From the NCBI GenBank assembly GCA_017615355.1, contig JAGAAJ010000060.1, forward strand, positions 1 to 40,452: a DNA stretch of 40,452 nt, written 5' to 3'. This DNA is from Prevotella sp. Its GTDB lineage: Bacteria; Bacteroidota; Bacteroidia; Bacteroidales; Bacteroidaceae. Shown piece after piece: positions 5,639-39,126 of this stretch. The translations under genes and the position numbers were made by a program. The notes under the pieces are model-generated. The model ran no database searches and was not told where the DNA came from. It saw nothing but the letters and a program-made list of their open reading frames with translations. How positions within the stretch are numbered: position 1 is the first letter of the stretch; every line of letters starts with the position of its first letter.

Positions 5639-5647
5639 CACGTTCTT

Positions 5648-5701
5648 TGGACATAAGGACAAAGGAACAGTTTTTTCGACATAAGAACAAAAGAACATAA
5701 A
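5648..5701 (+). repeat. Degenerate heptamer repeat in leader of the export operon
   Basis: Units such as GACATAA, GGACAAA, GGAACAG, then GACATAA, GAACAAA, AGAACAT. Spacing is 7 bp within each half, with a short T-run between. The array ends right before the start codon at 5707. Confidence 0.6.
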
Positions 5702-5706
5702 GAAAA

Positions 5707-6603
5707 ATGAAGAAGACAATCATCATTTCAGTGGCAGCGGCAGTGCTTCTGGCACTCGCTGTGGCAGCCTGTCTGTGGTTTTTCGTCATCCAGCCTAAGA
5801 ATGAAGACCTGAAGCAGCAGGATGAGAAAATGAAGAGTATGCAGGAGCTGGCAGAGCTCGAGAAGGAAGAGATGGAGAGCGAATATGCCCAGCTGGACCT
5901 GCAGTATGGCGAAATGATGATGCAGATCACCAACGACTCACTCATCGCACAGCTCACCCGCGAGCAGCTGCGTGCCCAGCAATTGCTGGAAGAGCTGAAG
6001 CAGGTGAAGGCCGACAACGCCGCTGAGATCACTCGTCTGAAGAAAGAGCTGAACAGCGTGCGTGCCGTGCTGCGCGACTATATCCGTCAGGTGGACTCGC
6101 TCAATCAGGTGAACCAGCACCTGCGCAACGAGAACACGCAGCTCAGCGGACGCCTGGAGGAGAGCACCCGCGAGAACCAGAACCTGCAGCAGGAGCGCCA
6201 GCAGCTGACGGAGCGTGTAACCATCGCTGCCCAGCTCAACGCCACAGCCATCAGCATGACTCGTATGGGCAAGCGCAAGGTGGCCAAGAAGATGAGCGAC
6301 ACGCAGACGCTGCAGGTGAACTTCAACATCGCCCGCAACGTGACGGCAGAGAACGGCGAGCGCACCATCTACGTGCGCATCATGACACCTACAGGCAGCG
6401 TGCTCTTCGGCGGCGGCTATTTCAACTACGAGAACCGTCAGCTGGAATACTCCATGAGGAAGACCATCGAATACTCTGGCGAGGAGACGCCCGTGGTGGT
6501 CTACTGGAACGTGGAGGAGACGCTGATGGCTGGCGACTATCACGTCAGCATCTTCGCCGACGGCAATATGATTGGCGACAAAACTTTCAGTTATGAAAAG
6601 TAA
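5707..6603 (+). CDS. Membrane-anchored coiled-coil protein of an export operon
   Basis: I do not recognise a named family. The 298-residue protein has an N-terminal membrane helix (residues about 4-28) and a long heptad-rich coiled coil (about 30-175, rich in Gln, Glu and Leu, for example LEEL, RLKKELNSV and QERQQLTERV). A C-terminal beta-rich domain (about 190-298) includes RTIYVRIMTPTGSVLFGGG and DYHVSIFADGNMIG. The topology suggests an inner-membrane anchor with a periplasmic coiled coil. Its 3' end overlaps the start of the TolC-like gene by 11 bp, so it is co-translated with the exporter and could act as a spacer or scaffold for the envelope-spanning complex. That role is inference from context. 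Confidence 0.8.
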   Translation: MKKTIIISVAAAVLLALAVAACLWFFVIQPKNEDLKQQDEKMKSMQELAELEKEEMESEYAQLDLQYGEMMMQITNDSLIAQLTREQLRAQQLLEELKQVKADNAAEITRLKKELNSVRAVLRDYIRQVDSLNQVNQHLRNENTQLSGRLEESTRENQNLQQERQQLTERVTIAAQLNATAISMTRMGKRKVAKKMSDTQTLQVNFNIARNVTAENGERTIYVRIMTPTGSVLFGGGYFNYENRQLEYSMRKTIEYSGEETPVVVYWNVEETLMAGDYHVSIFADGNMIGDKTFSYEK

Positions 6604-8143
6604 GATAAAGAACGGATGGATGATGGTGATAGCCTTATCATTTATCATCTGTCTATCATTCAGTTCTGCAGGGGCGCAAACCATCCTCAGCCTCGACAGC
6701 TGCCGCGCGATGGCCCTGCGCAACAGCAAACAGCTGGGCGTGGCTGCCATCAAGCAGGACGTGGCGCAGAACCTGCGGCGATCGGCACGCACGAAGTACC
6801 TGCCGCACGTGTCGGCCATCGGCAGCTATCAGTACACCAGCGAGGAGCTCTCATTGCTCAACGACCAGCAGAAGACAAGCCTCAGCAACATCGGTACGAC
6901 GGCTGCCACAGGCTTGCAGGGACTGGCCGGAGGCGTACAGCAACAGCTGGGACAGCTCGGACAGATGCTGGGCCAGATGGGGGTGCCGATGGAGGCCTTC
7001 CAGCAGATGGCCGGACAGATGCAGCAGCAGATGGGCCAGACGCTGACGAACACAGCCGGACTGCTGAACACGGAGGGACAGAAAATCGTAGATGCCTTCC
7101 GTACTGACACGCGCAACATCTTCGCAGGCAGCATCCTCGTGACGCAGCCCCTCTTCATGGGTGGCGCCATCCTGGCCCTCAACCGCATGGCCGACATCAA
7201 CGAGGACATGATGGAGTATTCAGCCGACGTGCGCAGCCAGGCCGTGCTCTACGGCGTGGATCAGGCCTACTGGCAGGTGGTCTCGCTGAAGCATAAGCAG
7301 GAGCTGGCACAGAGTTTCCTCGACGTAGTGAAGAAGCTCGACAGCGACGTGCAGAAGATGATTGAGGAGGGCGTGGCCACCCGCAGCGAGGGACTCAGCG
7401 TCAGCGTGAAGGTGAACGAAGCCGAGATGACCCTGCAGAAGGTGAACGACGGCCTGACCCTCTCGCGTATGCTGCTCTGCCAGAAGATAGGGCTGCCGCT
7501 GAAAGAGCCCATCATCCTCGTCGACGAGAACGCCGATAACTTAGGAGATATAGACCTCCAGGCTATTGTACCCCCCTCGGGAGGCGAAGGGGGAGCTCTA
7601 CGTCCTGAGCTGAAGATGCTGGGCAGCGCCGTCGACCTCAGCCACGAGGCCACCAACCTGCTGCGTGCCGCCAACCTGCCGCAAGTGGCGCTGACAGGCG
7701 GCTACGCCATCAGCAATCCCAACGTGCTGAACGGCTTCGAGAAGAAATTCGGCGGCTTCTGGAACGTGGGCGTCCTCGTCCGCATCCCCATCTGGAACTG
7801 GGGCGACGTGGCCTACAAGGTGCGTGCCTCGAAGGGAGCTACCGCCATTGCCAACCTCGAGTTGGACGAGGCCCGCGACCTCATCGAGTTGCAGGTGAAC
7901 CAATCGACGCTGAAGGTGGAAGAAGCCAACAAACGCCTCGCTATGGCCCAGACGGCTATCGAGCGTGCTGAGGAGAATCTGCGTGTAGCCAACGTAGGCT
8001 TCCAGGAGGGCGTCATCACTCCCACCACCGTGATGGAGGCCCAGACAGCCTGGCTGCAGGCTCGCTCACAGCTCATCGACGCACAGATCGACGTCCGCCT
8101 CTCGCAGGTGGATTTGCAGAAAGCCTTAGGTACCCTCAAGTAA
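6593..8143 (+). CDS. TolC-family outer membrane efflux protein
   Basis: An outer-membrane channel for tripartite export. The protein (516 residues from the ATG at 6593) has a signal peptide ending around SSAGAQ, the TolC opening LDSCRAMALRNSKQLGVA, and two long helical halves each ending in a beta/alpha repeat (NIFAGSILVTQPLFMGGAI, then NVGVLVRIPIWNWGD). The first half contains a Gln/Met/Gly-rich stretch (about residues 105-150), an expanded loop. A palindromic insert encodes VPPSGGEGGA from residue 326. The ATG at 6593 is preferred to 6572 because it places a basic n-region right before the hydrophobic stretch. The signal-peptide core lies in 7-bp-periodic DNA. The HlyD-like gene follows. 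Confidence 0.9.
   Translation: MKSKIKNGWMMVIALSFIICLSFSSAGAQTILSLDSCRAMALRNSKQLGVAAIKQDVAQNLRRSARTKYLPHVSAIGSYQYTSEELSLLNDQQKTSLSNIGTTAATGLQGLAGGVQQQLGQLGQMLGQMGVPMEAFQQMAGQMQQQMGQTLTNTAGLLNTEGQKIVDAFRTDTRNIFAGSILVTQPLFMGGAILALNRMADINEDMMEYSADVRSQAVLYGVDQAYWQVVSLKHKQELAQSFLDVVKKLDSDVQKMIEEGVATRSEGLSVSVKVNEAEMTLQKVNDGLTLSRMLLCQKIGLPLKEPIILVDENADNLGDIDLQAIVPPSGGEGGALRPELKMLGSAVDLSHEATNLLRAANLPQVALTGGYAISNPNVLNGFEKKFGGFWNVGVLVRIPIWNWGDVAYKVRASKGATAIANLELDEARDLIELQVNQSTLKVEEANKRLAMAQTAIERAEENLRVANVGFQEGVITPTTVMEAQTAWLQARSQLIDAQIDVRLSQVDLQKALGTLK
6614..6663 (+). repeat. Heptamer-like repeat inside the TolC-like signal peptide
   Basis: ATGGATG, ATGGTGA and then TTATCAT, TTATCAT, CTGTCTA, TCATTCA units, in 7-bp phase. 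It encodes the hydrophobic segment MVIALSFIICLSFS. Confidence 0.5.
7568..7600. repeat. GC-rich palindromic coding repeat, copy 2 (tolC-like gene)
   Basis: CCCCCCTCGGGAGG followed by CGAAGGGGG, read in frame as VPPSGGEGGA. It matches the topB copy at 1730-1760 in DNA pattern, reading frame and orientation relative to the gene. Confidence 0.6.
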
Positions 8144-9194: not shown

Positions 9195-10358
9195 ATGTTG
9201 AAGCGGATACCACAAATAGCCTTTCGCGAGTGCCGCCGCCTATGGCAGAATCCCATCTACGGATTCTGCATGGTGGTGTTCCCATTGCTGGTGGTATTCT
9301 TCTTCACGTCGCTGATGCACGAGGGACTGCCGCAGGATATGCCTGTGGGCGTGGTGGACGAGGACAACACGTCGACGACACGCGCCCTGGTGCAGCGCCT
9401 CGACGCCTTCCAGAACTCGAAGGTGGTGGCACACTACCCTACCCTCAGCGATGCCCGTCGCGCCATCCAGCACAACGAGATCTACGGATTCCTCTACATC
9501 CCCAAGGGCACTACCGATAACCTGCTGGCCAGCCGTCAGCCGAAGATTTCTTATTACTATACGCTGACTAGCATCGCAGCCGGCTCGCTGGTGTTCAAGG
9601 ATATGAAGACTATCAGCATACTAGGCTCTGCCGCCGTAGGACAGGCCACGATGCGTGCGAAGGGCTTCACGGAGGACCAGATACAGACATTCCTGCAACC
9701 CATCCGCATCGACCTGCATCAGATCAGCAATCCGCAGACGAACTACAACGTCTATCTCTCCACGATGCTCATCCCAGGTCTGATGATGCTGTTTATGTTC
9801 CTCATCACGGCCTATTCGATAGGCACGGAGCTGAAGTTCAACACGTCGAAGGAGTGGATGCAGGCCGCCAACAACAACATCCTTGTGGCATTGACAGGCA
9901 AGCTGCTGCCGCAGACGCTCATCTTCCTGCTGATCACCTTCTTCTACGAATTCTACGTCTTCGGCATCCTGCGTTGGCCTCACCCTGGCGGCGTGGGTAT
10001 GATTGTGCTCTTAGGCGTGCTCCACGTGCTGGCAGCACAGGGATTCGGCGTCTTCGCCTTCGGCCTGATGCCGTCGCTGCGCATGTCGATGAGTATCTGC
10101 TCGCTATGGGCTGTGCTCAGCTTCTCGATGGCAGGCTCGGCCTTCCCCATCATCGGCATGGACGGACCGCTGCAGGCCGCCAGCTGGCTCTTCCCCTTGC
10201 GCCACTACTACATGCTCTATCAGATCTGCGTCTTCAACGGCTATCCGCTGCTCGAGGCGTGGTTCCACTTTGCAGCCCTCGTGGGCTTTGCCCTCCTGCC
10301 CTGGCTGGTGCTGAAGAAGATCAAGAATGCAATGCTTAACTACGTCTACATACCATGA
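9195..10358 (+). CDS. ABC-2 type transporter permease, first copy
   Basis: An inner-membrane permease of the ABC-2/YhgE-Pip type (YbhS/YbhR-like). The 387-residue protein has one N-terminal membrane helix (YGFCMVVFPLLVVFFFTS), a large periplasmic domain beginning MPVGVVDEDNTSTTRALVQ, and five or six C-terminal helices from about residue 190. It pairs with the next gene, with a 4-bp start-stop overlap (ATGA). In known systems two such permeases form the channel with a cytoplasmic ATPase, but no ATPase gene is present in this operon. Confidence 0.9.
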   Translation: MLKRIPQIAFRECRRLWQNPIYGFCMVVFPLLVVFFFTSLMHEGLPQDMPVGVVDEDNTSTTRALVQRLDAFQNSKVVAHYPTLSDARRAIQHNEIYGFLYIPKGTTDNLLASRQPKISYYYTLTSIAAGSLVFKDMKTISILGSAAVGQATMRAKGFTEDQIQTFLQPIRIDLHQISNPQTNYNVYLSTMLIPGLMMLFMFLITAYSIGTELKFNTSKEWMQAANNNILVALTGKLLPQTLIFLLITFFYEFYVFGILRWPHPGGVGMIVLLGVLHVLAAQGFGVFAFGLMPSLRMSMSICSLWAVLSFSMAGSAFPIIGMDGPLQAASWLFPLRHYYMLYQICVFNGYPLLEAWFHFAALVGFALLPWLVLKKIKNAMLNYVYIP

Positions 10359-11608: not shown

Positions 11609-13417
11609 TTATCTGCTTCCGAAGAGCAGCTGGCGGTCGCGTTTGGCAGCGGGCTTAGTCCATTGCTCAGGCACGAATTTCCAGTTGTTGGCGGCCTTGG
11701 GACGGACGGTGCCCATGCGCTCGATCTCCCCCATGAGATAGTGGCGCAGGTCGAGCTCGCTCTGATAGATGATGCGGCTCTGCAGCGAGTCGCGAGGGAT
11801 GCCGGCCCCATGCACGATGAGGTCGCCGCCGCCATTGGCGCGATAGCTGTTCATCACCACCTTGTACGTCTTGTTCTCGTCGAAGGGCTCGCCGTTGCTC
11901 ATGCGGAGGATGCTGACCTTCTGGCCATTGGGTTTGGTAACGTCCACCTCATAGTCGATGCCTGATGCTGAATCGAAGTTGAAGGTGAGGTTCTTGAAGC
12001 CCATGCGCTGCTGGTCGCCTGTGCTGGCATCGTTGAGCAGCAGCAGGTGGTCGTCAGGACATTGCATCGTGTTCACCCACAGGTCGTAGCTCATCTCGAG
12101 GTGTCCGCGAATCTCGCGTCCTGTCATATTGAGGACGTAGAGCTGATTCTCATAGCGGTAGAGCTTGAACATATCAGCCACGGTGACAGGGCCTTTGTCG
12201 ATGCTGGCGTTGAAGGACAGCGGTGCGTTCAGCGAGATGTCGGCGCCAGTCAGCTGCAGCTGCATCTTGTGGATGAAGTCGATGAAGGCGGAGTTGCCGA
12301 AATAGGCATCCTGCGTAGAGCAGCCGTTGGCGAAGGTGCCGATTCGGCGTCCCACGAAGTCCTTGATGCGGTCGATGGTGGGCTGGAAGTGTGTCACCAT
12401 TTCCTCGTCTATCTCTTCGTTGCGGATGTCGACGATGTTGCCCTTGAAGCGCTTGTCCACCAGCCTACCACCCTCGTAGGTGAGGGTGACGGTGGCCTCG
12501 GCTATGTTGCGGCCGAAACACGAAGGATCGAGGCAGAGCACCTCGCGGCCCGACGGGCTCTTGATAATTTCGTTGTGCACCTGGTGGTCGTGTCCGAAGA
12601 AGATGGCGTCAAAGCCGTCCACTTGCTGTGCCACGAGCTGTGTGGCATCCTCCTCGAGGCCGTCGTCCATCGTGATGCCGCCATTGAGGCCGCTATGGAA
12701 GAGGCCGATGATGAGGTCGGGCTTCTCCACCTGCTGGATATACTTCACCCAGCGGCGTGCGCTGACAATCATATCCTCGAACTCCAGCCCCTGCCACAGG
12801 CTCTCGTTCAGCCAAGCGCCGATGGTGGGAGTAATCATGCCGAGGACGGCGATCTTGATGGTGGAAGGTTGATGGTTGATGGTGGATGGTGGAAGGAGAT
12901 TTCTCTCAATGATGGCATAGGGCCTAACGTAGGGCAGGCGAGTCTCGCGGTCGATGATATTGGCAGCAATGACAGGACATTGCACCTCGCCTATCCACTT
13001 GTCGTAGACCTTATGGCCCGTCTCCACATCGTGGTTGCCTATGGCCTCCACGTCGTAGCCCATGTAGTTGACGACCTGTGCGGCAAGGTTCTCATCATCA
13101 CGCATGACGTAGTTCGACCAGTAGGTGCAGGGCTGTCCCTGCAGGATATCGCCGTTATCGAGGAGCAGCAGGCGGTCGCCATACTGCTGCCGCTGCTGCT
13201 TGATATAGGTGTTGGCCCTTGCCGACGTGCCGTTCAGTGCACGTCCGTTGACAAAGTCATAGGGGAAGAAGTGGCCGTGAATGTCGCTGGTCTCAATAAT
13301 CTTCAGCTCCACAGTCTGCGCAGATAAAGAGATGAGTGATAAGTGATAAGCGACAAGTGCCAGTAGTACACTGCCTATCCACTTTGCTCTCACTCCATAA
13401 TTTGTTTCTTTTCTCAT
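11609..13417 (-). CDS. Secreted 5'-nucleotidase / 2',3'-cyclic phosphodiesterase family protein
   Basis: A UshA/CpdB-like metallophosphoesterase that removes phosphate from nucleotides or cyclic nucleotides outside the cytoplasm; exact substrate unresolved. From the ATG at 13417 it is 602 residues. It has a signal peptide ending near SLSAQ and the dimetal motifs TSDIHGH (43-49), DNGD (87-90), GNHD (127-130), FHSG and GHDHQVHN. A C-terminal 5'-nucleotidase domain contains GADISLNAPLSF and NSYRANGGGD. The GTG at 13423 is also possible but less likely. Residues about 174-187 (LLPPSTINHQPSTI) are an in-frame insertion coded by a 7-bp repeat before the strand KIAVLGM. The signal-peptide core is also coded by a 7-bp repeat. 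It follows a small lipoprotein gene by 25 bp and is probably co-transcribed. Confidence 0.9.
   Translation of the reverse strand: MRKETNYGVRAKWIGSVLLALVAYHLSLISLSAQTVELKIIETSDIHGHFFPYDFVNGRALNGTSARANTYIKQQRQQYGDRLLLLDNGDILQGQPCTYWSNYVMRDDENLAAQVVNYMGYDVEAIGNHDVETGHKVYDKWIGEVQCPVIAANIIDRETRLPYVRPYAIIERNLLPPSTINHQPSTIKIAVLGMITPTIGAWLNESLWQGLEFEDMIVSARRWVKYIQQVEKPDLIIGLFHSGLNGGITMDDGLEEDATQLVAQQVDGFDAIFFGHDHQVHNEIIKSPSGREVLCLDPSCFGRNIAEATVTLTYEGGRLVDKRFKGNIVDIRNEEIDEEMVTHFQPTIDRIKDFVGRRIGTFANGCSTQDAYFGNSAFIDFIHKMQLQLTGADISLNAPLSFNASIDKGPVTVADMFKLYRYENQLYVLNMTGREIRGHLEMSYDLWVNTMQCPDDHLLLLNDASTGDQQRMGFKNLTFNFDSASGIDYEVDVTKPNGQKVSILRMSNGEPFDENKTYKVVMNSYRANGGGDLIVHGAGIPRDSLQSRIIYQSELDLRHYLMGEIERMGTVRPKAANNWKFVPEQWTKPAAKRDRQLLFGSR
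12856..12895 (-). repeat. In-frame heptamer repeat inside the nucleotidase gene
   Basis: On the plus strand: GATGGTG, GAAGGTT, GATGGTT, GATGGTG, GATGGTG, in 7-bp register. Read on the coding strand it gives PPSTINHQPSTI between conserved segments. Confidence 0.75.
13331..13361 (-). repeat. Heptamer repeat in the nucleotidase signal peptide
   Basis: Plus strand units GAGTGAT, AAGTGAT, AAGCGAC, AAGTGCC. On the coding strand it gives the hydrophobic stretch LVAYHLSLISLS. Confidence 0.65.
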
Positions 13418-13419
13418 GG

Positions 13420-13441
13420 CCACTTATCACTTATCGCTTCA
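13420..13441 (-). repeat. Heptamer repeat between lipoprotein and nucleotidase genes
   Basis: CACTTAT, CACTTAT, CGCTTCA on the plus strand, filling almost all of the 25-bp spacer before the nucleotidase ATG. The unit is the reverse complement of the one in the signal-peptide repeat nearby (AAGTGAT). Confidence 0.6.
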
Positions 13442-14992: not shown

Positions 14993-16126
14993 ATGAGCTA
15001 TCGCCTGAGAGATAACGTCAACAACCAGTGGGTGGAAGCCGCCAATGCCCTGCGTGGCAAGAAGGCGCGTCGCCGCATCGTGGCCTATGTCGAGAGCTAC
15101 GACGACATCTACTTCTGGCGTACTGTGCTCTCGCGTTTCGAGGACGACCGCCGCTACTTCGAGGTGATGCTGCCCTCGAAGATGAACCTCACCAGGGGCA
15201 AGAAGTCGGTGCTGATGAACTTTATCAGGGGTGAGAGAATAGAGGAAAGAGGAGAGAGGAAAGAGGAAAGAGGAGAGAGGAAAGAGGAAAGAGAAATGAG
15301 AAGAGAGGAGAGATTGGGTGACTCGATGATTGCATGCGTCGATGCCGACTACGACTACCTGATACAGGGCGCCACCGACCAGTCGAGGAAAGTGCTGCAG
15401 AGCCCCTACGTCTTCCACACCTACGTCTACGCCATCGAGAACTACCAGTGCTATGCGCCCTCGCTGCACGACGTATGCGTGGCGGTGACACTCAACGACC
15501 ACCGCATCTTCGACTTCCGCGACTATTTCGCACGATTCTCCGAGGCCATTTTCCCACTCTTCGTATGGAGCATCATGTTCTACCGCAACGGCAACTATCC
15601 GCGATTCTCCATCAGCGACTTCAACCGCATTGCCGACCCTGGCGGTTTCACCGTGCAGAATCCTGACGCCTCGCTCAACAACGTGAAGCGCAAGGTGGGA
15701 GTGAAGATTCGCGAGCTGCAGCGACAGTATCCCAATGCCAAGGACGAATACCTGCACACCAAGGACGACCTGCGCCGGCTGGGCGTTACCCCGCAGTCCA
15801 CCTACCTCTACATCCAGGGCCACCACCTGTTCGACACCGTCGTGGCACCCATCCTCACCAAGGTGTGCAACCAGCTGCGACAGGAGCGGCAGACCGAGAT
15901 ATACCACGCACAGGCCCATCGCACGCAGAAACGAAATGAGATGTCCTGCTACGAAAACTCGCGGCAGGACATCAAAACCATGCTTAAGAAAAATACGGGC
16001 TATCAGCAGTGCCCGCTGTTCATTAGGCTGCAGGGCGACGTGGAGCGCTATCTCAAGAAGATGAACGCCAGCGCCAACGCTGCTACTACTCCTGAGCCGG
16101 CTGAGGCATCGGCTGATCAGGATTAG
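14993..16126 (+). CDS. DUF4435 (TOPRIM-like) protein, putative effector of the ATPase pair
   Basis: A 377-residue protein with a DUF4435 domain, a TOPRIM-related fold found in AriB of the PARIS system. The likely metal site is built from E34 in AYVESYDDIYFW and D117/D119 in ACVDADYDY. Other conserved segments are RGKKSVLMNF and HTYVYAIENYQCYAPSLHDV. The C-terminal half is basic and helical (RQDIKTMLKKNTGY). Between MNFIRG and SMIACVDADYDY lies a charged insertion (residues about 81-108, repeated ERGERKE and EER) coded by a 7-bp repeat. It sits right before the putative catalytic strand yet keeps the frame. The 3' end overlaps the convergent DUF4890 gene by 41 bp. Confidence 0.88.
   Translation: MSYRLRDNVNNQWVEAANALRGKKARRRIVAYVESYDDIYFWRTVLSRFEDDRRYFEVMLPSKMNLTRGKKSVLMNFIRGERIEERGERKEERGERKEEREMRREERLGDSMIACVDADYDYLIQGATDQSRKVLQSPYVFHTYVYAIENYQCYAPSLHDVCVAVTLNDHRIFDFRDYFARFSEAIFPLFVWSIMFYRNGNYPRFSISDFNRIADPGGFTVQNPDASLNNVKRKVGVKIRELQRQYPNAKDEYLHTKDDLRRLGVTPQSTYLYIQGHHLFDTVVAPILTKVCNQLRQERQTEIYHAQAHRTQKRNEMSCYENSRQDIKTMLKKNTGYQQCPLFIRLQGDVERYLKKMNASANAATTPEPAEASADQD
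15231..15314 (+). repeat. In-frame heptamer repeat in the DUF4435 gene
   Basis: About twelve units of GAAAGAG or GAGAGAG (with AAATGAG and AAGAGAG variants) in 7-bp register. This is the longest array in the window. It encodes a Glu/Arg/Lys-rich segment of about 28 residues. Confidence 0.85.
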
Positions 16127-16800: not shown

Positions 16801-17844
16801 TCAGATGTAGGTTTCAAGCATCTTTAACTGGCCCTCGACCATGACGGTCTGGGTGGTGGCAGGGAGCAGGAGGGTCTCGCCGGCACGGAGGGTGGTAGTA
16901 GCCACGGAGGAGGAAGGATTCACCCCAGAGGAGGGAAGACTGGCATCGGTGACGGTGAGCTTCGCCTCGCCACGCAGGCCGATGAGGATGACGAAGGAGT
17001 CGAGGTCGGCATAGTCGAGGAGCATGGGCTCGGTGAGGTCGTAGACGGCGGTGTTGAAATAGGGACAGCTGACGAGGGGCTGCGGCATGTTGGGCGCAGG
17101 CTGGTAGTGGGTGCGATAGTCGTCCAGCACGTTGTAGTCGATGGCCTCGGCGGCCTCGCGTGTATGCAGCTGGCGCAGATTGCCGTTGGCATCGCGGCGG
17201 TTGTAGTCGTAGATTCGATAGGTGACGTCGCTGGTCTGCTGTATCTCGGCCACGAAGCTTCCTGCACCGATGGCGTGGATGCGGCCGGCAGGGATGAAGA
17301 AGACATCGCCCTCGCTGACGTCATAGCGAGCCAGCACCTCGGTGATGGTGCCCGCAGCCACCATCTGCGCATACTGCTCAGGAGTGATCTGCTGCTTCAG
17401 GCCGCAATAGAGGTGAGGGGTGATGGATGATGGGTGATGGATGATGGTTGATGGTTGATGGTGGATGGTGGAGGGGGATGCCATCACGTACCACATCTCG
17501 GTCTTGCCTCGAGGATGACCGTGACGGTGTGCCACCTCGTCGTTGGGATGCACCTGTATGGACAGGTCCTTGTGGGCATCGATGAACTTGACGAGCAAGG
17601 GGAACTCGTCGCCGAAACGGGCGTAGTTGTCGTGCCCCATGAGGTGTTCGCGCTGACTGCGCACCAGTTCGTTGAGGGTCATGCCGGCACTGGGGCCTTC
17701 GCTGACTACTGTCTCGCTGCCAGGCACGCCTGACAGTTCCCAGCTCTCGCCTACATGGTCAAGCTGCTGGGAAAGATGTTTAAAGGGGATGATGCTGTCG
17801 CCTCCCCAGATAGTCTGTTTTAGTAATGGTTGGAACTTATACAT
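16801..17844 (-). CDS. manA: Mannose-6-phosphate isomerase, class I
   Basis: A zinc isomerase interconverting mannose 6-phosphate and fructose 6-phosphate, linking sugar catabolism with GDP-mannose supply. The 347-residue protein starts MYKFQPLLKQTIWGG and has GESWELSG, IQVHPND (H99), KTEMWYVM (E116) and GRIHAIG, which carry the metal ligands of the family. Start 17844 is chosen because the -7 box at 17879-17886 overlaps the longer alternative. A 7-bp repeat adds about 22 residues (SPSTIHHQPSTIIHHPSSIT, about 123-142) between EMWYVM and LYCGLK, where relatives have a short turn. A second Ser/Pro-rich stretch (SLPSSGVNPSSS) near the C-terminus also looks inserted. Confidence 0.92.
   Translation of the reverse strand: MYKFQPLLKQTIWGGDSIIPFKHLSQQLDHVGESWELSGVPGSETVVSEGPSAGMTLNELVRSQREHLMGHDNYARFGDEFPLLVKFIDAHKDLSIQVHPNDEVAHRHGHPRGKTEMWYVMASPSTIHHQPSTIIHHPSSITPHLYCGLKQQITPEQYAQMVAAGTITEVLARYDVSEGDVFFIPAGRIHAIGAGSFVAEIQQTSDVTYRIYDYNRRDANGNLRQLHTREAAEAIDYNVLDDYRTHYQPAPNMPQPLVSCPYFNTAVYDLTEPMLLDYADLDSFVILIGLRGEAKLTVTDASLPSSGVNPSSSVATTTLRAGETLLLPATTQTVMVEGQLKMLETYI
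17412..17474 (-). repeat. In-frame heptamer repeat inside manA
   Basis: Plus-strand units GGTGATG, GATGATG, GGTGATG, GATGATG, GTTGATG, GTTGATG, GTGGATG, GTGGAGG. It encodes PSTIHHQPSTIIHHPSSI in a loop of ManA. Related to the repeat at 12856-12895. Confidence 0.8.
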
Positions 17845-32054: not shown

Positions 32055-32096
32055 TGACAATAAACAATAAACGTTAACCATTAAACATTATTGAGA
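32055..32096 (+). repeat. Heptamer repeat before fasciclin lipoprotein C
   Basis: AATAAAC, AATAAAC, GTTAACC, ATTAAAC, ATTATTG. It fills the spacer up to the ATG at 32097. The 37172-37205 spacer before susD2 is almost the same. Confidence 0.75.
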
Positions 32097-33830
32097 ATGA
32101 AAAAGAAATCAATGATAAGGCTCCTGACCAACAAGATAACGGTTATTGGTTATTGGATATTGGTTATTGGTGCTACTGCCTGCTCCGACTGGACAGACCA
32201 CTACGAGGCCGACAGCACACTCTTGGAGACGCAGCAGCAGACACTGTGGGAGAACATCGCCTCCTCGGCGAACCTGACACAGTTCAAGAGCCTGCTACAG
32301 AAGACGGGCTACGACGCTGTGCTCAACAGCACGCAGACCTTCACAGTGTGGGCTCCGGCTGATGGCACCTATGATTACGAGACGCTCGCTGCCATGAACA
32401 ACAGCCGCCTGCAGCGTGAGTTCGTGGAGAACCATGTGGCACGCAACAGCTATCCGGCATCGGGCCTGGTGGAGAAGAGCCTGTACACCATCAACGAGAA
32501 GCTCATGCACTTCAACGGCAACCACCAGTATGTCATGCAGGGCATCGATGTCTCCAAGCCCAACGTGAACACGCACAATGGCATCCTTCACGTGCTGAAC
32601 GGCAAGATTCCGTTTATGGCGAACATCTATGAGTCGCTGAACAACAACGACTTCCCCATCGACTCCATCGCCAATTACTACCACAGCTTCGATGAGCGCA
32701 AGCTGGACGAGAACAGGAGTATACAAGGCCCCATCGTCGATGGCAACCTCACTTGGCTCGACTCCGTCTTCGACGAGCGCAACGACCTCTACAGCAACTA
32801 CTTTGCCTACATCAACCGTGAGGACAGCAACTACACCATGCTGGTGCCCACGAATGAAGCATGGACAAAGGCCAAGGCAAAGATCAAGGACTACTATAAG
32901 TTCCTGCCCTCGTTCGAGGCTGTTGAGACCATCGACGGCACGGAGATGACAAAGAACACCATTACCATCCGCGACGTGGACTCCCTCACCGAGGCTACCG
33001 TCAACTACATGCTGATGAGAGACCTTTTCTACAACAACAACCTCTACGACAACAAGAAGCTCAACGCCTTGCAGACCGGACAGACGCTGCAGGCAGACTC
33101 TCTGTACTCCACCCTTGGCACGAAGATTTACAGCGAGGATGCTGCCAATCTGTTTGAGGGTGCCATACGCCACGACAAGAGCAACGGAGCCATCTGGATT
33201 ACCGACAGCCTGCGCATGCAGCCCTGGCACACCTGGAATCCCGAGCTGATCATCCAGGCCGAAGGCAGCGTCATGGATGCCGTGAACGTCAGCGAGGCCA
33301 AGCGTGTATACATTTCCTCCGGCACACAGAATCCCGATATCAGCGGCCATGTGTCGAAAGATTCCTATCTCGACCTGCCGCCCATCGCCAAGGGTGCCAG
33401 CCCGAGCGCTGTCTTCAGCTTGCGCAATGTGCGCAGCGCCACCTACAGCATCTATATCGTCACCGTTCCTGGCAACATACTTAGCAATTACTACGAGTCA
33501 AAGCCCTACTGCTTCCGCGTATCCCTGGGATATGTCGACGAGAACGGCAAGAATAAGGACAAGGACAGGAAATGGTGTGTAGAAAGCCAGTTTGTCAGCG
33601 ATCCGACCCGCATTGACACCATCTATTTGGGCGACTTCACATTCCCCATGTCCTACTATGGCACGGGCAACTATTTCCCCTATATGCGTGTCGAGTGCTA
33701 CATCAGGTCCAACTTCGTGGATGTCTACGACCCCAACCTGCGCTTCGACTGCATCATCCTGCGTCCGAAGGAGCTTGACACTTATATGAAAGAGCATCCT
33801 GAGTACAAGTATGACCAGGGCAATTACTAA
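32097..33830 (+). CDS. Fasciclin (FAS1) lipoprotein C with C-terminal beta domain
   Basis: A 577-residue lipoprotein whose signal peptide (lipobox ATAC, Cys29) has a core made of a 7-bp repeat (ITVIGYWILVIG, residues 14-25). FAS1-like modules lie at about 45-195 (LTQFKSLLQKTGYDAVLN, TFTVWAPADGTY) and about 205-370 (YTMLVPTNEAWTKAKAKIKD). A C-terminal beta domain starts near LIIQAEGSVMDAVNV and resembles that of protein B in size and placement. The ATG at 32097 is chosen because it gives a basic n-region directly before the core; TTG at 32091 is not needed. It precedes SusC2 by 33 bp. Confidence 0.87.
   Translation: MKKKSMIRLLTNKITVIGYWILVIGATACSDWTDHYEADSTLLETQQQTLWENIASSANLTQFKSLLQKTGYDAVLNSTQTFTVWAPADGTYDYETLAAMNNSRLQREFVENHVARNSYPASGLVEKSLYTINEKLMHFNGNHQYVMQGIDVSKPNVNTHNGILHVLNGKIPFMANIYESLNNNDFPIDSIANYYHSFDERKLDENRSIQGPIVDGNLTWLDSVFDERNDLYSNYFAYINREDSNYTMLVPTNEAWTKAKAKIKDYYKFLPSFEAVETIDGTEMTKNTITIRDVDSLTEATVNYMLMRDLFYNNNLYDNKKLNALQTGQTLQADSLYSTLGTKIYSEDAANLFEGAIRHDKSNGAIWITDSLRMQPWHTWNPELIIQAEGSVMDAVNVSEAKRVYISSGTQNPDISGHVSKDSYLDLPPIAKGASPSAVFSLRNVRSATYSIYIVTVPGNILSNYYESKPYCFRVSLGYVDENGKNKDKDRKWCVESQFVSDPTRIDTIYLGDFTFPMSYYGTGNYFPYMRVECYIRSNFVDVYDPNLRFDCIILRPKELDTYMKEHPEYKYDQGNY
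32139..32172 (+). repeat. Heptamer repeat in the signal peptide of fasciclin C
   Basis: GGTTATT, GGTTATT, GGATATT, GGTTATT, GG. Three units equal seven codons, so the peptide itself repeats (VIGYWIL then VIG). Confidence 0.85.
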
Positions 33831-33863
33831 CCTGAAGATGAAACTGAAATAGAGTAAACAGCT

Positions 33864-36800
33864 ATGAGACGATACAGCATCCTACTTTTTTCCCTCCTGA
33901 ATGTTTTCATGGTGACGTCAACGATGGCACAAGACGATGACGACATTGTGTACACCACCGAAGAAGAGCCCGTAGCCGTGGTCAAGAAACCCGTGGTGAA
34001 AATACCCACCTACCCCACGATGGAGGTCAAGGGCATCTGCATCGACGCCGTGTCGAAGCAGCCGCTTGTCGGTGTGCTCATCCAGGCATTGGGTGACGCA
34101 AAGTACACCGCCATGACCGACGACGACGGCACCTTCACCATCAAAGTGCCCACCTTTGTTACTTCGCTCTATGTCCACTCGCCTGAGTTTCTCAGCCAGC
34201 AAGTAGGCATCGGCCGTGGCAATGCCGCCCTGCGCATCGAGATGCTCAGCGACAAGTTCCGTCCCATGTACGACAAGACCACCCGTGTCGATGCCTCCGC
34301 AACGGCGAAGATGACGAACACCACGTCGCAGACCATCGAGACCGACATTGAGAACGAGCTGGGTGGCGACGTGCGTTCCATAACACGCTCAGGTGGCCCA
34401 GGCTATGGCGCCGCCATGTTCATACGAGGTCTGAACTCACTCAATGCCAATGCACAGCCTCTCTTCGTCGTCGACGGCATCATTCAGGACATGCAGCAGA
34501 CACGATCCACGCTGCACTATGGCGACTACACCAACCTCCTGCTGAACATCAACCCCGAGGACATCGAGCAGGTCACCGTGCTGAAGAATGCCACCGCCCT
34601 CTATGGTGCCAAGGGTGCCAACGGCGTAGTGCTCATCGATACGAAGCGCGGCCACTCCATGGCCACACGCATTGATGCCAACGTCGGCGTGGGTGTCACG
34701 CTGGTGCCACAGACTCCCGACATGATGAACGCCGCCCAGTACCGCCTCTATGCCACTGAGATGCTGGGCACCTACCCGGAGATCAACGACTTCACCGATC
34801 CGCTGGCGTTCAAGTTCCTCATTGACGACCCGTCGAAGTATTACTACACCAAGTACCACAACGACACCGACTGGAAGAAGGAGGCCTACCGCACGGCCCT
34901 CAACCAGAACTACAACATCAACGTGCAGGGTGGCGACGACATCGGTATGTACAACCTCTCACTGGGCTACACCGACGGTCAGAGCACGGCCAAGAAGAAC
35001 GGCTTCAACCGTCTGAACGTGCGCTTCAACACCGATATCTACATCATCAACAAGCTCACCACTCGCTTCGACATGTCGTTTGCCAAAATCAACCGCGACG
35101 TCTTCGATAACGGTGCTCCGCAGAACCTCACCACCGGCACCATCTCGTCGCCCACCTTCCTGGCACTCATCAAGTCGCCGTTCCTCAACCCCTACACCTA
35201 TAATAATATGACGGGCAAGCTGTCGTCGACGATGAGCGAGGCCGACGACTTTGTCGACATGCTCGACGGCGACCTCACCCTCGGCAACCCCACAGCCCTG
35301 CTGGCCAACGGCGACGACATCAACAAGAACCGTGTGGAGACAACACATTTCAATGCCGTCATCGCACCGCGCTGGGAGTTCAATCCCAACCTCTCGCTGA
35401 CAGAGACCTTCAGCTACAGCCTCGACCGCGTGTCGCAGCGCTACTATCGTCCGAAGGGCGGCATGCCTACCTTCCTCATCGAAGGCATCGGCCGTGTGCA
35501 GAATATGGCCATGTCGATGTTCTCCAAGGAGACCTCCGTCGTCAGCGACACCCGCCTGGAGTGGAAGAAACAGTTCCGCGAGCACAGCCTCGACGTCTAT
35601 GGAGGCCTGCGCTTCACATCCTTCGGCTTCGACAACAACTCGCCTAAGGGCCAGTATTCCTCAGCCGGCAACGACAAGATGCCCAACATCACCACGAGCA
35701 TGGACTTCATCGAGGCTACGGGTACCGACGACGAATGGCGCGGCCTCACCTGGTATGCCAATGCCGACTACAACTACCGCAACCGCTACTTCGCACAGCT
35801 GACGATGGCTATGGAGAGCAACAGCCGCTTCGGCAAAGAGGCCGACGGCCTAAAGCTCGCCGGTGTGTGCTGGGGCCTCTTCCCCAGCCTGCAGCTGGGA
35901 TGGGCCGTCAGCAACGAGGCTTGGTTCCCGCAGTCCAAGGGCATCAACTACCTGCTGTTGAAGACCGGCTATGACATCAGCGGCAATGACGACATCAACA
36001 ACTACGCTGCCCGCACCTCCTTCGGAGTCAGCAAGTACCTTTGGCGCTCCACCGCTGCCGTGCTCGACAATATCGGCAACGAGAGCATCAGCTGGGAGCA
36101 GACGGGCAAGTTCAACATCGGCCTGAAGGCTGCCCTGCTGAACAACCGCGTGGCTGTGGATTTCGACTACTTCTACCACCACACCACCAACCTGCTCACG
36201 CTGAAAAGCTTCAACAACCCCATCGCAGGTATCAACAACTACTGGAGCAATGGTGGCTCGCTCGACAATCAGGGCTTCGAGCTCGCTGTCAGCGCCAAGC
36301 CCATCGTGGCCCGCAACCTCTGCCTCGAGGTGGGTGCCAGCCTTGGCCACTATGTCAACAAGGTGAAGACGCTGCCCAACGACAGCCGCATCTACGTAGG
36401 CGGCAAGCAGGACGCACAGGGCTTCACCACCAGCATCTATGGTCAGGACAATATCGCCACCATCGTGGGTCTGCCCGTCGGCATGTTCTACGGCTATAAG
36501 ACCGACGGCGTCTTCGCCGACGACCAGGAGGCCTCCACAGCCGGCAAGAACGGCTATCTCTACCTCACCGATGCCACGGGCGCACAGCAGCAGTTCCGTG
36601 CTGGCGACATGCATTTCGTCGACATCAACGGCGACGGCGAGATCAGCCTGGCCGACAAGACCATCATCGGCAATCCCAACCCCGACATCTACGGCAATAT
36701 CTTCGCATCCCTCAACTGGAAGAACTTCACCCTGCACGTAGGTCTGAACTACTCGCTGGGCAACGACATCTACAACTATCAGCGCTCGCTGCTCGAGGGT

Positions 36801-37169
36801 GGCTTCAACTTCTACAACCAGACCACCGCCATGACCAATCGCTGGCGTGCCGAGGGTCAGCAGACCGACATCCCGCGCATCAGCTTCGAAGACCCGATGG
36901 GCAACTCCCGCTTCAGCGACCGCTGGATTGAGGACGGCTCCTATCTGCGTCTGAAGACCGTGCGCCTCAACTATCAGGTGCCCGTCAACCTCACCTGGCT
37001 GCAGGGCTTGGCCATCTGGGCCGAGGCCAACAACCTCCTCACCGTCACCCATTACCTAGGCAACGATCCTGAGATGTCAGTCTCCAACTCAGTCCTCTAT
37101 CAGGGCATCGACGCCGGCAACGTGGCATTGGGACGCACCTTCACGCTCGGCATGCGAATCAACCTCTAA
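33864..37169 (+). CDS. SusC/RagA-type TonB-dependent outer membrane transporter 2
   Basis: The second transporter, 1101 residues. After the signal peptide (ends TMAQ) comes an unusual acidic/proline linker (DDDDIVYTTEEEPVAVVKKP), then a carboxypeptidase-regulatory-like domain (VKGICIDAVSKQPLVGVLIQAL ... VTSLYVHSPEF). The plug has SITRSGGPGYGAAMFIRGLNS, PLFVVDGIIQDM and DIEQVTVLKNATALYGAKGANG. The barrel ends LGMRINL. I do not see a canonical VVVTA-like TonB box, unlike SusC1. Only low similarity with SusC1 is apparent, so the two transporters probably handle different ligands or ligand forms. SusD2 follows after a repeat spacer. Confidence 0.95.
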   Translation: MRRYSILLFSLLNVFMVTSTMAQDDDDIVYTTEEEPVAVVKKPVVKIPTYPTMEVKGICIDAVSKQPLVGVLIQALGDAKYTAMTDDDGTFTIKVPTFVTSLYVHSPEFLSQQVGIGRGNAALRIEMLSDKFRPMYDKTTRVDASATAKMTNTTSQTIETDIENELGGDVRSITRSGGPGYGAAMFIRGLNSLNANAQPLFVVDGIIQDMQQTRSTLHYGDYTNLLLNINPEDIEQVTVLKNATALYGAKGANGVVLIDTKRGHSMATRIDANVGVGVTLVPQTPDMMNAAQYRLYATEMLGTYPEINDFTDPLAFKFLIDDPSKYYYTKYHNDTDWKKEAYRTALNQNYNINVQGGDDIGMYNLSLGYTDGQSTAKKNGFNRLNVRFNTDIYIINKLTTRFDMSFAKINRDVFDNGAPQNLTTGTISSPTFLALIKSPFLNPYTYNNMTGKLSSTMSEADDFVDMLDGDLTLGNPTALLANGDDINKNRVETTHFNAVIAPRWEFNPNLSLTETFSYSLDRVSQRYYRPKGGMPTFLIEGIGRVQNMAMSMFSKETSVVSDTRLEWKKQFREHSLDVYGGLRFTSFGFDNNSPKGQYSSAGNDKMPNITTSMDFIEATGTDDEWRGLTWYANADYNYRNRYFAQLTMAMESNSRFGKEADGLKLAGVCWGLFPSLQLGWAVSNEAWFPQSKGINYLLLKTGYDISGNDDINNYAARTSFGVSKYLWRSTAAVLDNIGNESISWEQTGKFNIGLKAALLNNRVAVDFDYFYHHTTNLLTLKSFNNPIAGINNYWSNGGSLDNQGFELAVSAKPIVARNLCLEVGASLGHYVNKVKTLPNDSRIYVGGKQDAQGFTTSIYGQDNIATIVGLPVGMFYGYKTDGVFADDQEASTAGKNGYLYLTDATGAQQQFRAGDMHFVDINGDGEISLADKTIIGNPNPDIYGNIFASLNWKNFTLHVGLNYSLGNDIYNYQRSLLEGGFNFYNQTTAMTNRWRAEGQQTDIPRISFEDPMGNSRFSDRWIEDGSYLRLKTVRLNYQVPVNLTWLQGLAIWAEANNLLTVTHYLGNDPEMSVSNSVLYQGIDAGNVALGRTFTLGMRINL

Positions 37170-37171
37170 TA

Positions 37172-37205
37172 CAATAACAATAAACGTTGAACATTAAACA
37201 TTGAG
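37172..37205 (+). repeat. Heptamer repeat between susC2 and susD2
   Basis: CAATAAC, AATAAAC, GTTGAAC, ATTAAAC, ATTGAGA. It nearly matches the 32055-32096 spacer. Confidence 0.75.
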
Positions 37206-37209
37206 AAGA

Positions 37210-39126
37210 ATGAAAAAGCTATCAATCATAAAGAAAATGGCCGGTGTAATAACGGTTATCGGTTATTGTTTATTGGTTATTGGAACGTCCTCCTGCTCCG
37301 ACTTCTTCGAGACCGACTCCGACCGTCAGATCTTCGACCCGGCACTCGACCAGAAGACCGACTCCATGTTCTACACCCTCGGCATCCTGAAGAGCGTGCA
37401 GATGGTGGCCGACCAGTATGTGATGACAGGCGAGATGCGTGGCGACCTCGTGCAGACCAACCAGTACACCGAGACCGACCTGCGCCGTCTGGCCGATTTC
37501 TCGGCCGACGTCACCAACAAGTACGACTCGGCCTATGCCTACTATCGTATCATCAACAACTGCAACTACTACATCGCCCATCGTGACACCACGCTGAAGA
37601 CAGGCAGCCGCCGCGTAGCCATCCCCGAATATGCCGAGGCCCTGGCCGTGCGTGCATGGACCTACATGCAGCTGTGCAAGACCTACGGTGAGGTGCCCTT
37701 CTACACCGACCCCCTGACCAGCATCGGCGATGCCAACAAGCACTTCGACAAGAAGGACCTGCAGGGCATCAGCGACGCCCTCATCCCTGAGCTGCTGAAG
37801 TTCAGCGGCCTCACCATCGACGGCGGCACCCCCGTGCCCGACTATGGCAGCATCTCTGCCGGCGTACTCAACAGCAGCGAGTCGGGCAGCCCCACCGAGA
37901 AGACCGTACTGTCGAAGAACATCATGATACCCGTCGACGTCATCCTCGGCGACCTCTACCTCGAGACACACCAGTATGAGAAGGCCGCCAAGCACTACTT
38001 CCAGTATATCGTCGACAATGAGCTGAGCCCCATCTCCATTTTGGCCAGTCCCTCCAACGAGCAGCTCGACCGCTTTGAGGACATCCTGCCCGAGGACTTC
38101 AATAGCGCCAGGACATCACCCAGCTGGAGCTCCATCTTCGGCGGCGAGTCCACCACCGACATCATCACCTACATCCCCCTGGCCACCAACCGTCTGCGTG
38201 GCACCGTCACAGAGCTGCCCCGCTATTTCGGCTACGACTTCTATAGCACCACCGGCGGCGATGCCAACAGCTCCTCACGTTTCCTCAAGGAGCGCCAGAT
38301 AGATGCCTCACAGGCCTATCTCACACTCGCCAACAGTCAGGACTACTACTACATCCCTGAGGGCAGCGATGAAGGCTCGGTCGACATCAGCTCCGCCAGC
38401 ATAGGCGACTGCCGACGCTATTCAACCATGCGACAGATCGTGCCCCTCTCACGTGCCGACTCCGTCTACTACGTCATGATCAAGTTCAACAGCGCCAACG
38501 TGCCCCTCTACCGCGTCGCCACCATCTATCTGCGACTGGCTGAGGCCATCAACCGCATGGGCTATCCCGACGCAGCCTTCGCCATCCTCAAGGAAGGCAT
38601 CAACTACGACGGCGACGAGGATCATCCCAACAGGAACATCGAGCTAGGCGACAGCACCGACCTCGAGATGGGACGCTACATCCATCAGGAAACGGCAGCC
38701 ATGCTCTCCACCACCCTGCCCTTCTTCACGGCCGAGAACCGCAACCTCTTCCAGCGCGGCTATGGCATCCACTCACGCGGCAGCAACAACACCAGGGGCT
38801 TGTCGCCCTATCAGTACAAGTCCATCGTGGGACAGAAGCTCGACGAGCTGACGGCTGTCTACGGTCTCAACCCCGACAACTTCACCCTGCAGGACACCAT
38901 CAATGCCGTCGAGGACATCATCTGCGACGAGATGGCACTTGAGCTGGCCTTCGAGGGCAACCGCTTCGGCGACCTCACCCGCTTCGCCCGCCACAAGAAC
39001 AACGCAGGCCTCTACGGCTCCACCTTCGGCAGCGAGTGGCTCGCACGCAAGCTCGAGTTTAAGCATCCCGTCAAGTCACTCCGCGAAGAGAAGAACTGGT
39101 ACCTGCCCTTCCGCACAGAAGAGTAG
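37210..39126 (+). CDS. SusD/RagB-type surface lipoprotein 2
   Basis: The 638-residue partner lipoprotein of SusC2. The lipobox is TSSC (Cys29), and its core ITVIGYCLLVIG (14-25) is coded by a 7-bp repeat and aligns residue for residue with the signal of fasciclin C. SusD features include DPALDQKTDSMFYTLGIL, EALAVRAWTYMQLCKTYGEVPFYTDP and the C-terminal ICDEMALELAFEGNRFGDLTRFARH, which matches the family's ending block. The ATG at 37210 is favoured; a TTG at 37201 lies in the repeat. It is the last gene of the operon, with a strong terminator 20 bp downstream. Confidence 0.94.
   Translation: MKKLSIIKKMAGVITVIGYCLLVIGTSSCSDFFETDSDRQIFDPALDQKTDSMFYTLGILKSVQMVADQYVMTGEMRGDLVQTNQYTETDLRRLADFSADVTNKYDSAYAYYRIINNCNYYIAHRDTTLKTGSRRVAIPEYAEALAVRAWTYMQLCKTYGEVPFYTDPLTSIGDANKHFDKKDLQGISDALIPELLKFSGLTIDGGTPVPDYGSISAGVLNSSESGSPTEKTVLSKNIMIPVDVILGDLYLETHQYEKAAKHYFQYIVDNELSPISILASPSNEQLDRFEDILPEDFNSARTSPSWSSIFGGESTTDIITYIPLATNRLRGTVTELPRYFGYDFYSTTGGDANSSSRFLKERQIDASQAYLTLANSQDYYYIPEGSDEGSVDISSASIGDCRRYSTMRQIVPLSRADSVYYVMIKFNSANVPLYRVATIYLRLAEAINRMGYPDAAFAILKEGINYDGDEDHPNRNIELGDSTDLEMGRYIHQETAAMLSTTLPFFTAENRNLFQRGYGIHSRGSNNTRGLSPYQYKSIVGQKLDELTAVYGLNPDNFTLQDTINAVEDIICDEMALELAFEGNRFGDLTRFARHKNNAGLYGSTFGSEWLARKLEFKHPVKSLREEKNWYLPFRTEE
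37254..37284 (+). repeat. Heptamer repeat in the signal peptide of SusD2
   Basis: GGTTATC, GGTTATT, GTTTATT, GGTTATT, GG in the same frame and residue position as the fasciclin C copy. Confidence 0.85.

Follow-up and report, generated by a model that had tools for sequence, protein, structure and literature searches.

Heptamer repeats dispersed in a Prevotella genome probably overwrite the signal-peptide cores of unrelated secreted proteins

As far as the consulted portions of the respective papers go, the closest described systems are the following. The opa genes of Neisseria carry CTCTT pentamers in the region coding for the leader peptide (PMC3960869). Heptanucleotide repeats with intergenic TAACTGA or GGGAATC units were reported, and heptamers were said to outnumber every other class in most genomes (PMC4679880, PMC4692102; Mrazek 2007 as quoted there), while the term "signal peptide" has 0 occurrences in the main texts of these two papers. 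The Rickettsia palindromic elements come in families, measure about 150 bp and encode a conserved peptide (PMC10969869), and template-switch mutations create hairpins and alter proteins (PMC8794818, PMC8604942, PMC7202029). In this work, a stretch of 40,452 nt from Prevotella sp. (assembly GCA_017615355.1, contig JAGAAJ010000060.1, positions 1 to 40,452 of the forward strand; hereafter the window) was analyzed, in which the genes for a fasciclin protein (fasciclin C) and a SusD protein (SusD2) have signal-peptide (SP) cores written by GGTTATT-type tandem heptamers. We propose that SP cores are probably overwritten repeatedly by dispersed heptamer repeats, one strand of which can be read through in all three frames without a stop. 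The original prediction knew of no description of heptamers in this role. Repeats in an SP region are already known from the opa pentamers, according to the part of the opa source cited above (PMC3960869), and heptamers as SP cores were not described in the titles and abstract openings of the open-licence literature searched.

Read directly from the start codons at 32097 (fasciclin C) and 37210 (SusD2), SP residues 14-25 are ITVIGYWILVIG and ITVIGYCLLVIG, respectively, and both are repeat-written, as had been predicted. The fasciclin C array (GGTTATT GGTTATT GGATATT GGTTATT GG; 32141-32170, + strand) consists of four units plus GG with a single substitution in unit 3 and encodes the core VIGYWILVIG. 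It lies within the SP MKKKSMIRLLTNKITVIGYWILVIGATAC, which extends from the ATG through the Cys codon of a lipobox assigned by a home-made pattern, without a trained predictor (32097..32183, + strand). The SusD2 array (GGTTATC GGTTATT GTTTATT GGTTATT GG; + strand) occupies about 37254-37283, or 37253..37283 with the core TVIGYCLLVIG, within the SP MKKLSIIKKMAGVITVIGYCLLVIGTSSC, again from the ATG through the lipobox Cys codon (37210..37296, + strand). Tandem Repeats Finder gave period 7 for both arrays, with 4.4 and 4.3 copies and scores of 55 and 46, and Pfam assigned the two proteins to Fasciclin (3.4e-18) and SusD_RagB (6.8e-11).

The excess of 7-bp periodicity in SP codons that the original prediction asked for is present in the sampled part of the genome. 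From the host genome (3.25 Mb, 147 contigs), the window and 20 systematically chosen contig stretches were taken, comprising 361 kb, 257 open reading frames (ORFs) and 97 SPs. Periodicity was scored as the best run per lag (match +1, mismatch -2) with thresholds of our own choosing. The SP calls come from a home-made rule in place of a trained predictor and include false positives as well as misses, and ORFs were called greedily and mechanically; all comparisons use sampled stretches of draft assemblies, mostly metagenome-assembled genomes (MAGs), with one genome per species. A lag-7 score of at least 11 was reached by 6/97 SPs, while synonymous shuffles gave a mean of 0.02 (maximum 1 in 100) and codon permutation 0.00. 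Among the other lags from 4 to 16, the harmonic lag 14 gave two such SPs, lags 8 and 16 one each and the rest zero. The corresponding lag-7 counts were 1/96 for internal transmembrane segments, 8/1425 for internal coding tiles and 13/300 for intergenic tiles, where SPs average 69 nt, control tiles measure up to 87 nt and some internal tiles come from spurious-looking ORFs. The window alone contributes 3/11 SPs; outside it the count is 3/86, with a shuffle mean of 0.005 (maximum 1 in 200) and 6/1252 for 69-nt internal coding tiles. The richness of SPs over other coding DNA is roughly seven-fold (outside the window) to eleven-fold (all), close to that of intergenic DNA. Among genes without a called SP, 4/125 score at least 8, and one of these is a missed SP (L098).

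In four genomes picked because orthologs there had repeat-written SPs (G097, G090, G121 and G072), 6/124 SPs scored at least 8 (0.17 expected, maximum 1) and 3/124 at least 11 (0.01 expected). Controls in these genomes gave 0/163 transmembrane segments and 8/1845 internal tiles, the latter with G097 left out; the internal-coding excess of that genome was discarded because it consisted of runs of N. Another 3/221 N-termini without a called SP also score and look like missed SPs. In G016, G024, G266 and G059, 2/92 SPs reached 8 and 0/92 reached 11, so the richness varies by lineage.

Heptamer arrays are a dispersed class of DNA in this genome. The 361 kb contain 54 period-7 arrays in 32 classes; the other periods gave 19 arrays (period 8), 8 (6), 6 (9), 5 (12), 2 (13) and 0 (5, 10 and 11), and one block-shuffled control gave 0 arrays at every period counted. 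From the tile counts above, heptamer arrays are denser in intergenic (13/300) than in internal coding DNA (8/1425). The eight SP-borne heptamer classes checked are all stop-free in the sense direction (8/8) and contain stops in antisense (8/8), with a mean Kyte-Doolittle (KD) hydropathy of 0.73 to 1.97. Since 7 shares no factor with 3, all three frames of a perfect array yield one and the same cyclic peptide of seven residues.

With at most one mismatch, GGTTATTGGTTATT occurs in the genome in 40 rows, that is at 27 distinct places. Judged by eye, 25 of these are 12 SP cores, 12 intergenic sites or gene ends and one C-terminal coding site. By Pfam, ten genes with GGTTATT-type SPs belong to SusD (2), fasciclin, TonB plug, GH3, GH38, BACON, PD40 and Omp28, with no assignment for one, and the window pair brings such genes to 12. 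In the GH3 and GH38 genes the first unit lies in a different codon phase, and an identically interrupted 31-nt variant is shared by C63, where it lies in an SP, and C38, where it is intergenic. An exact 15-mer of GGTTATT type was present in 6 genomes of a 60-genome draw of the genus, our own included, in both SP and non-SP copies. Thus, the observation is real and broader than the original prediction said. Across the order, the TTTGTCA pattern was detected in 6/295 genomes, again including our own; 9 of its 17 loci were viewed, of which two have an ORF start that puts the array near the N-terminus (own genome and L236) and seven do not. At L236, from another family of the order, the TTTGTCA heptamers stand near the ORF start, some residues ahead of a lipobox-like LAGC, a hint that the phenomenon reaches past the genus. 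Carriage by phages was considered and dropped: the two IMG/VR contigs matching an 18-mer are mutually identical there, and the array adjoins an ORF without an SP.

Fasciclin C and SusD2 are not homologous. When their SP DNA was aligned in the 20 genomes with both genes, the mean score was 19.95 within genomes versus 10.04 between them (0/5000 permutations). The likeness continues in the 80 nt upstream (11.85 versus 9.38, 27/5000), and the 90 nt after the Cys codon gave no effect (8.25 versus 7.93, 682/5000). The shared cores include non-heptamer types, such as the CCCCTC..GGAGG palindrome in G023 and G155.

The weaker heptamers predicted under two further SPs of the window fared differently. 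The nucleotidase SP core is written by CTTGTCG CTTATCA CTTATCA CTCATC (13331-13357, - strand), and its lag-7 score of 11 bears the prediction out. The same gene has an internal heptamer array encoding the loop residues PPSTINHQPSTI (12860..12893, - strand), at a position that has no residues in 12/15 other aligned sequences and other inserts in three. The TolC-like SP (ATG at 6593) contains weak TTTATCA heptamers (6635-6660, + strand) with a lag-7 score of only 7; they may represent a decayed array, as the ortholog in the sister genome G593 has four units and a score of 19.

Relatives of the window carry different repeats at the same gene. The fasciclin C relatives are MAGs labelled uncultured Prevotellaceae (two) or Prevotella sp. 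(one); two have RUG names, which we take to denote a rumen series. Four GGTTATT units are kept in the window and in two relatives (whose proteins are 91 and 81% identical to that of the window), and the third relative has an unrelated leader with CTCATTTT octamers, flanked on both sides by DNA of 85-87% identity. Orthologs were fetched at 30 loci per search, out of 75, 154 and 75 genomes with matches. At lag 7 or 8, a score of at least 8 was reached by 7/32 SPs for fasciclin (including the window and two of the named relatives), 6/30 for SusD2 and 1/27 for the nucleotidase, namely that of the window, with three further nucleotidase loci without a called SP lying outside the 27. Repeat types of the fetched fasciclin SPs include TTTGTCA, TTCATTA and CTATTCA. 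The SusD2 SPs belong to the families GGTTATT (window), CATTCTT (G593), CCTCTCT type (G594) and CTCATTTT (G595), at protein identities to the window of 91, 85 and 84% for G593, G594 and G595, respectively. The TolC SP has TTTATCA types in the window and G593 and TTTTCAA in G594; that of G595 (score 4) lacks a clear period. In the nucleotidase, a 49-nt stretch of equal length is found in the window, G593 and G595 (9 and 10 differences), and G594 has a different SP without an array.

Furthermore, SP arrays tend to have inverted partners in the leaders of their own genes. The fasciclin C leader contains an array (32057-32090), part of which, the arm CAATAAACAATAAACG (32058..32073, + strand), matches the beginning of the SP array in reverse complement at 14/16 positions by eye. 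The nucleotidase leader arm AAGCGATAAGTGATAAGTG (13421..13439, - strand) matches the reverse complement of its SP array with a score of 15 versus a mean of 7.6, and the start codon sits between the two arms. The SusD2 leader array of AACAATAAACATTG type (37172..37204, + strand) is a weak match, with a score of 11 versus a mean of 10.2 with other genes. The 100 nt before the ATG were scored against reverse-complemented SP arrays, which for 39 SPs gave 13.49 with the own array and 9.18 with those of other genes (0/5000); the direct strand of the leaders gave no effect in the same test (759/5000). With swaps within genomes only, the values were 12.85 versus 9.94 (0/5000, n = 40), and leaving out the GGTTATT family (n = 24) gave 28/5000; the draws are not independent, as some of the rows are closely related to each other. 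Non-array SPs gave no effect in the reverse-complement test (223/1000, n = 195). In 1.04 Mb, 225 arrays were found, 179 of them with flanks; an inverted partner lay within 180 nt in 42/179 versus 3/179 at about 1 kb, a count that can take in both arms of one pair, and direct partners numbered 12 versus 0. Collapsed to 29 inverted pairs, 13 are intergenic, 8 lie over a gene start, 7 inside ORFs and one at a C-terminus. The strongest internal pair, a perfect 32-bp inverted repeat with heptamer arms at L206 (G090; 9335-9420), lies inside an ORF of 399 residues, presumably an isochorismate synthase, and may encode a linker insert.

Overwriting of SP cores would bring together that heptamers are in excess in SPs, that non-homologous genes share cores, that orthologs differ in their repeats and that leaders contain inverted partners. 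Heptamer and sometimes octamer tandem repeats form a class of short dispersed DNA, denser between genes and often arranged in inverted pairs. An SP core needs little beyond hydrophobicity and so tolerates array DNA better than most coding sites, and therefore would be overwritten repeatedly. Unrelated genes for secreted proteins of one genome would then share leaders, and species would differ in the repeat family at the same gene. We infer slippage as the generator of the arrays, template switching as the generator of inverted copies, recombination as the means of copying leaders between genes, and also the direction of each SP replacement. A more specific form is possible, although we consider it rather less likely than its opposite: an SP would be born in one mutational step, a template switch by which the A-rich heptamers of the gene's own leader are copied, inverted, into the gene start. 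Whatever the frame, the copy would provide a hydrophobic core that is T-rich and free of stops, together with a leader-SP hairpin, and recombination would then spread the leader among the secreted proteins of the genome.

Several observations weigh against the overwriting of SP cores or narrow it. It would be a minority route, as 91/97 sampled SPs have no strong heptamer, half of the six strong SPs sit in the window that raised the question, and the home-made SP rule has its errors in both directions. Strongly hydrophobic arrays (mean KD at least 1.5) are 5/54, below the 20% of composition-matched random heptamers; therefore, the arrays as a whole are not adapted to SPs, and we take the SP to be a tolerant site at which suitable arrays persist. 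The sharing within genomes is carried by 8/20 genomes (score at least 17), the top score, 58, is between genomes, and part of the sharing could come from gene duplication, as the fasciclin, SusD and TonB genes of C124 resemble those of the window. By score, the sister copies in G595 are not periodic (nucleotidase 5, TolC 4), and a replacement was not caught in any dated strain pair.

Hydrophobic codons (NTN) make low-complexity DNA, and Ile, Val and Leu are abundant in SP cores, so the periodicity could in principle be a matter of chance. Six SPs were observed where synonymous shuffles left 0.02 and codon permutations 0.00, internal transmembrane segments gave 1/96, and outside the window three stood against 0.005; chance was ruled out by the shuffling and permutation and has a negligible probability. 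The original prediction saw in the repeats a way to make, tune or phase-vary SPs. The making is supported, as several heptamers write SP cores and orthologs carry others. A phase-variable contingency system, in which slippage of SP heptamers shifts the frame and toggles lipoprotein production, as in the opa genes of Neisseria, would suit tandem units whose length is not a multiple of 3, close to the start codon of surface-type proteins. However, the fasciclin C array has four units in three genomes and the nucleotidase stretch keeps its 49 nt in three, so at species level neither tuning nor phase variation found support; among the kept arrays, length differs only in the TolC SP, by 3 nt in frame. 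The arrays are also short and interrupted, with about 3-4.5 imperfect units. All 12 SP genes with GGTTATT-type arrays have them in frame, and no out-of-frame copy was seen by eye among the 25 places. This count is partly circular, as an off-frame array is hard to tell from an intergenic one, an objection countered only by the by-eye reading of the 13 other places. Consensus assemblies cannot reveal minority variants, and with these data phase variation appears very unlikely.

Two other explanations start from the leaders. Leader cassettes may have spread solely by gene duplication and conversion, with the heptamers as incidental passengers. This agrees with the within-genome likeness that runs into the 80 nt upstream (11.85 versus 9.38, 27/5000), with the core that the fasciclin, SusD and TonB genes of C124 have in common with the window genes and with the sharing of non-heptamer cores. 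On the other hand, the core is also common to GH3, GH38, Omp28, BACON and PD40 genes, the first unit in GH3 and GH38 is in another codon phase, multiple heptamer classes occur in SPs, and similar arrays lie between genes and in the nucleotidase loop, and we regard cassettes alone as unlikely. The SP array could also be half of an RNA switch, in which a selected mRNA hairpin between the leader arm and the SP-coding arm controls translation. The match of leader arms to their own SP-array reverse complement above same-genome swaps (12.85 versus 9.94, 0/5000) speaks for it, as do the long stems predicted in L062 and L210. Predicted leader-SP pairs averaged 20.4 for array leaders and 11.4 for non-array leaders, and 19.9 with the own versus 14.2 with swapped leaders; own pairing exceeded the swap mean in 24/40 only, and the energy per base is about equal to that of non-array SPs. 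RNA folding gave a suggestive z of -2.69 for the nucleotidase and weak values of -1.88 and -1.15 for the two main sites. In L111, three changes in the leader arm each lose a pair of the window register, uncompensated by eye, while the predicted fold retains 40 cross pairs in a different register. Moreover, inverted pairs are commoner between genes (13/29) than over gene starts (8/29). A selected hairpin thus seems still more doubtful than the cassettes, and we read the leader-SP pairing mainly as a trace of the origin of the arrays, although it may have a function.

Other repeats were observed beside these. In the window, an AGAGGAA array (15233-15313) has 10.4 copies by Tandem Repeats Finder, the most among the heptamer rows of the window, a TGATGGT/TGATGGA array (17412-17480) has about 7 copies, and a 28-bp unit, GTTCTTTCGACATAAGAACAAAAGAACA, is present in two copies (5642-5697) directly before an ORF starting at 5707. 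Some SP cores, such as APLTLGGIGGGL and PLPWGGVGIGLL, are made by a GC-rich palindromic repeat of CCCTCC..GGGAGG type (L107, L215, L082, L085, L157, L158), and the CCCTCCC/GGGAGGG palindrome is plain in some SPs. A short hairpin, GCTGCGGC-ATT-GCCGCAGC, was seen by eye in several lipoprotein SPs (L067, L072, L073, L078). Inverted repeats with a score of at least 6 occur in 58/221 SPs versus a shuffle mean of 30 (maximum 39) and 22/259 transmembrane segments, and with a score of at least 8 in 4/221 versus 2.4, so the palindrome effect in SPs is modest overall.

If SP cores are indeed overwritten by repeat DNA, it would mean that there is a concrete route from noncoding repeat DNA to a protein targeting signal. 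It would help to account for SPs that cannot be aligned among close orthologs, and the origin of an SP would become testable by strain sequencing. For annotation, N-termini such as LSFVICHLSF, ILHSSFFISC and VIGYCLLVIG should be recognized as repeat-written in these bacteria.

By comparison with opa, as the consulted part of that source describes it, the SPs reported here likewise have a short tandem repeat in the region coding for the leader peptide, with a unit that is not a multiple of 3. In opa, however, there is one gene family and one unit with variable number and measured switching rates, whereas here the genes are unrelated and the unit sequences several. Unlike opa, the arrays are short and imperfect, no variation of their unit number was seen and other repeats stand at the same gene in other species. 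We class them with dispersed heptamer repeats rather than with contingency systems of the opa type, whose number variation was tested for here and was not found at species level. The intergenic heptamer repeats, in the portions of the two reports drawn on, are like those found here in being dispersed, often near starts and patchy among lineages, with period 7 exceeding other periods; they were reported mainly outside genes, whereas here they also form SP cores. The Rickettsia palindromic elements, within what the excerpt covers, resemble our arrays as dispersed repeats in frame within unrelated genes, with tolerated peptide inserts. In contrast to them, the arrays here are about 30 bp, have many sequences (32 classes) and are enriched in SP cores; a long palindromic element with a conserved peptide was not encountered, and inverted pairs are common with arms and peptides that differ. 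Template switching, as outlined in the openings of the abstracts, would yield nearby inverted copies like those around starts here, and these openings contain nothing on signal peptides or heptamer arrays. Intergenic heptamers, repeats inside genes and SP-region repeats were known before; their combination, with several heptamer families recurrently writing the SP cores of unrelated proteins, did not come up in the open-licence literature searched, judged mostly by titles and abstract openings.

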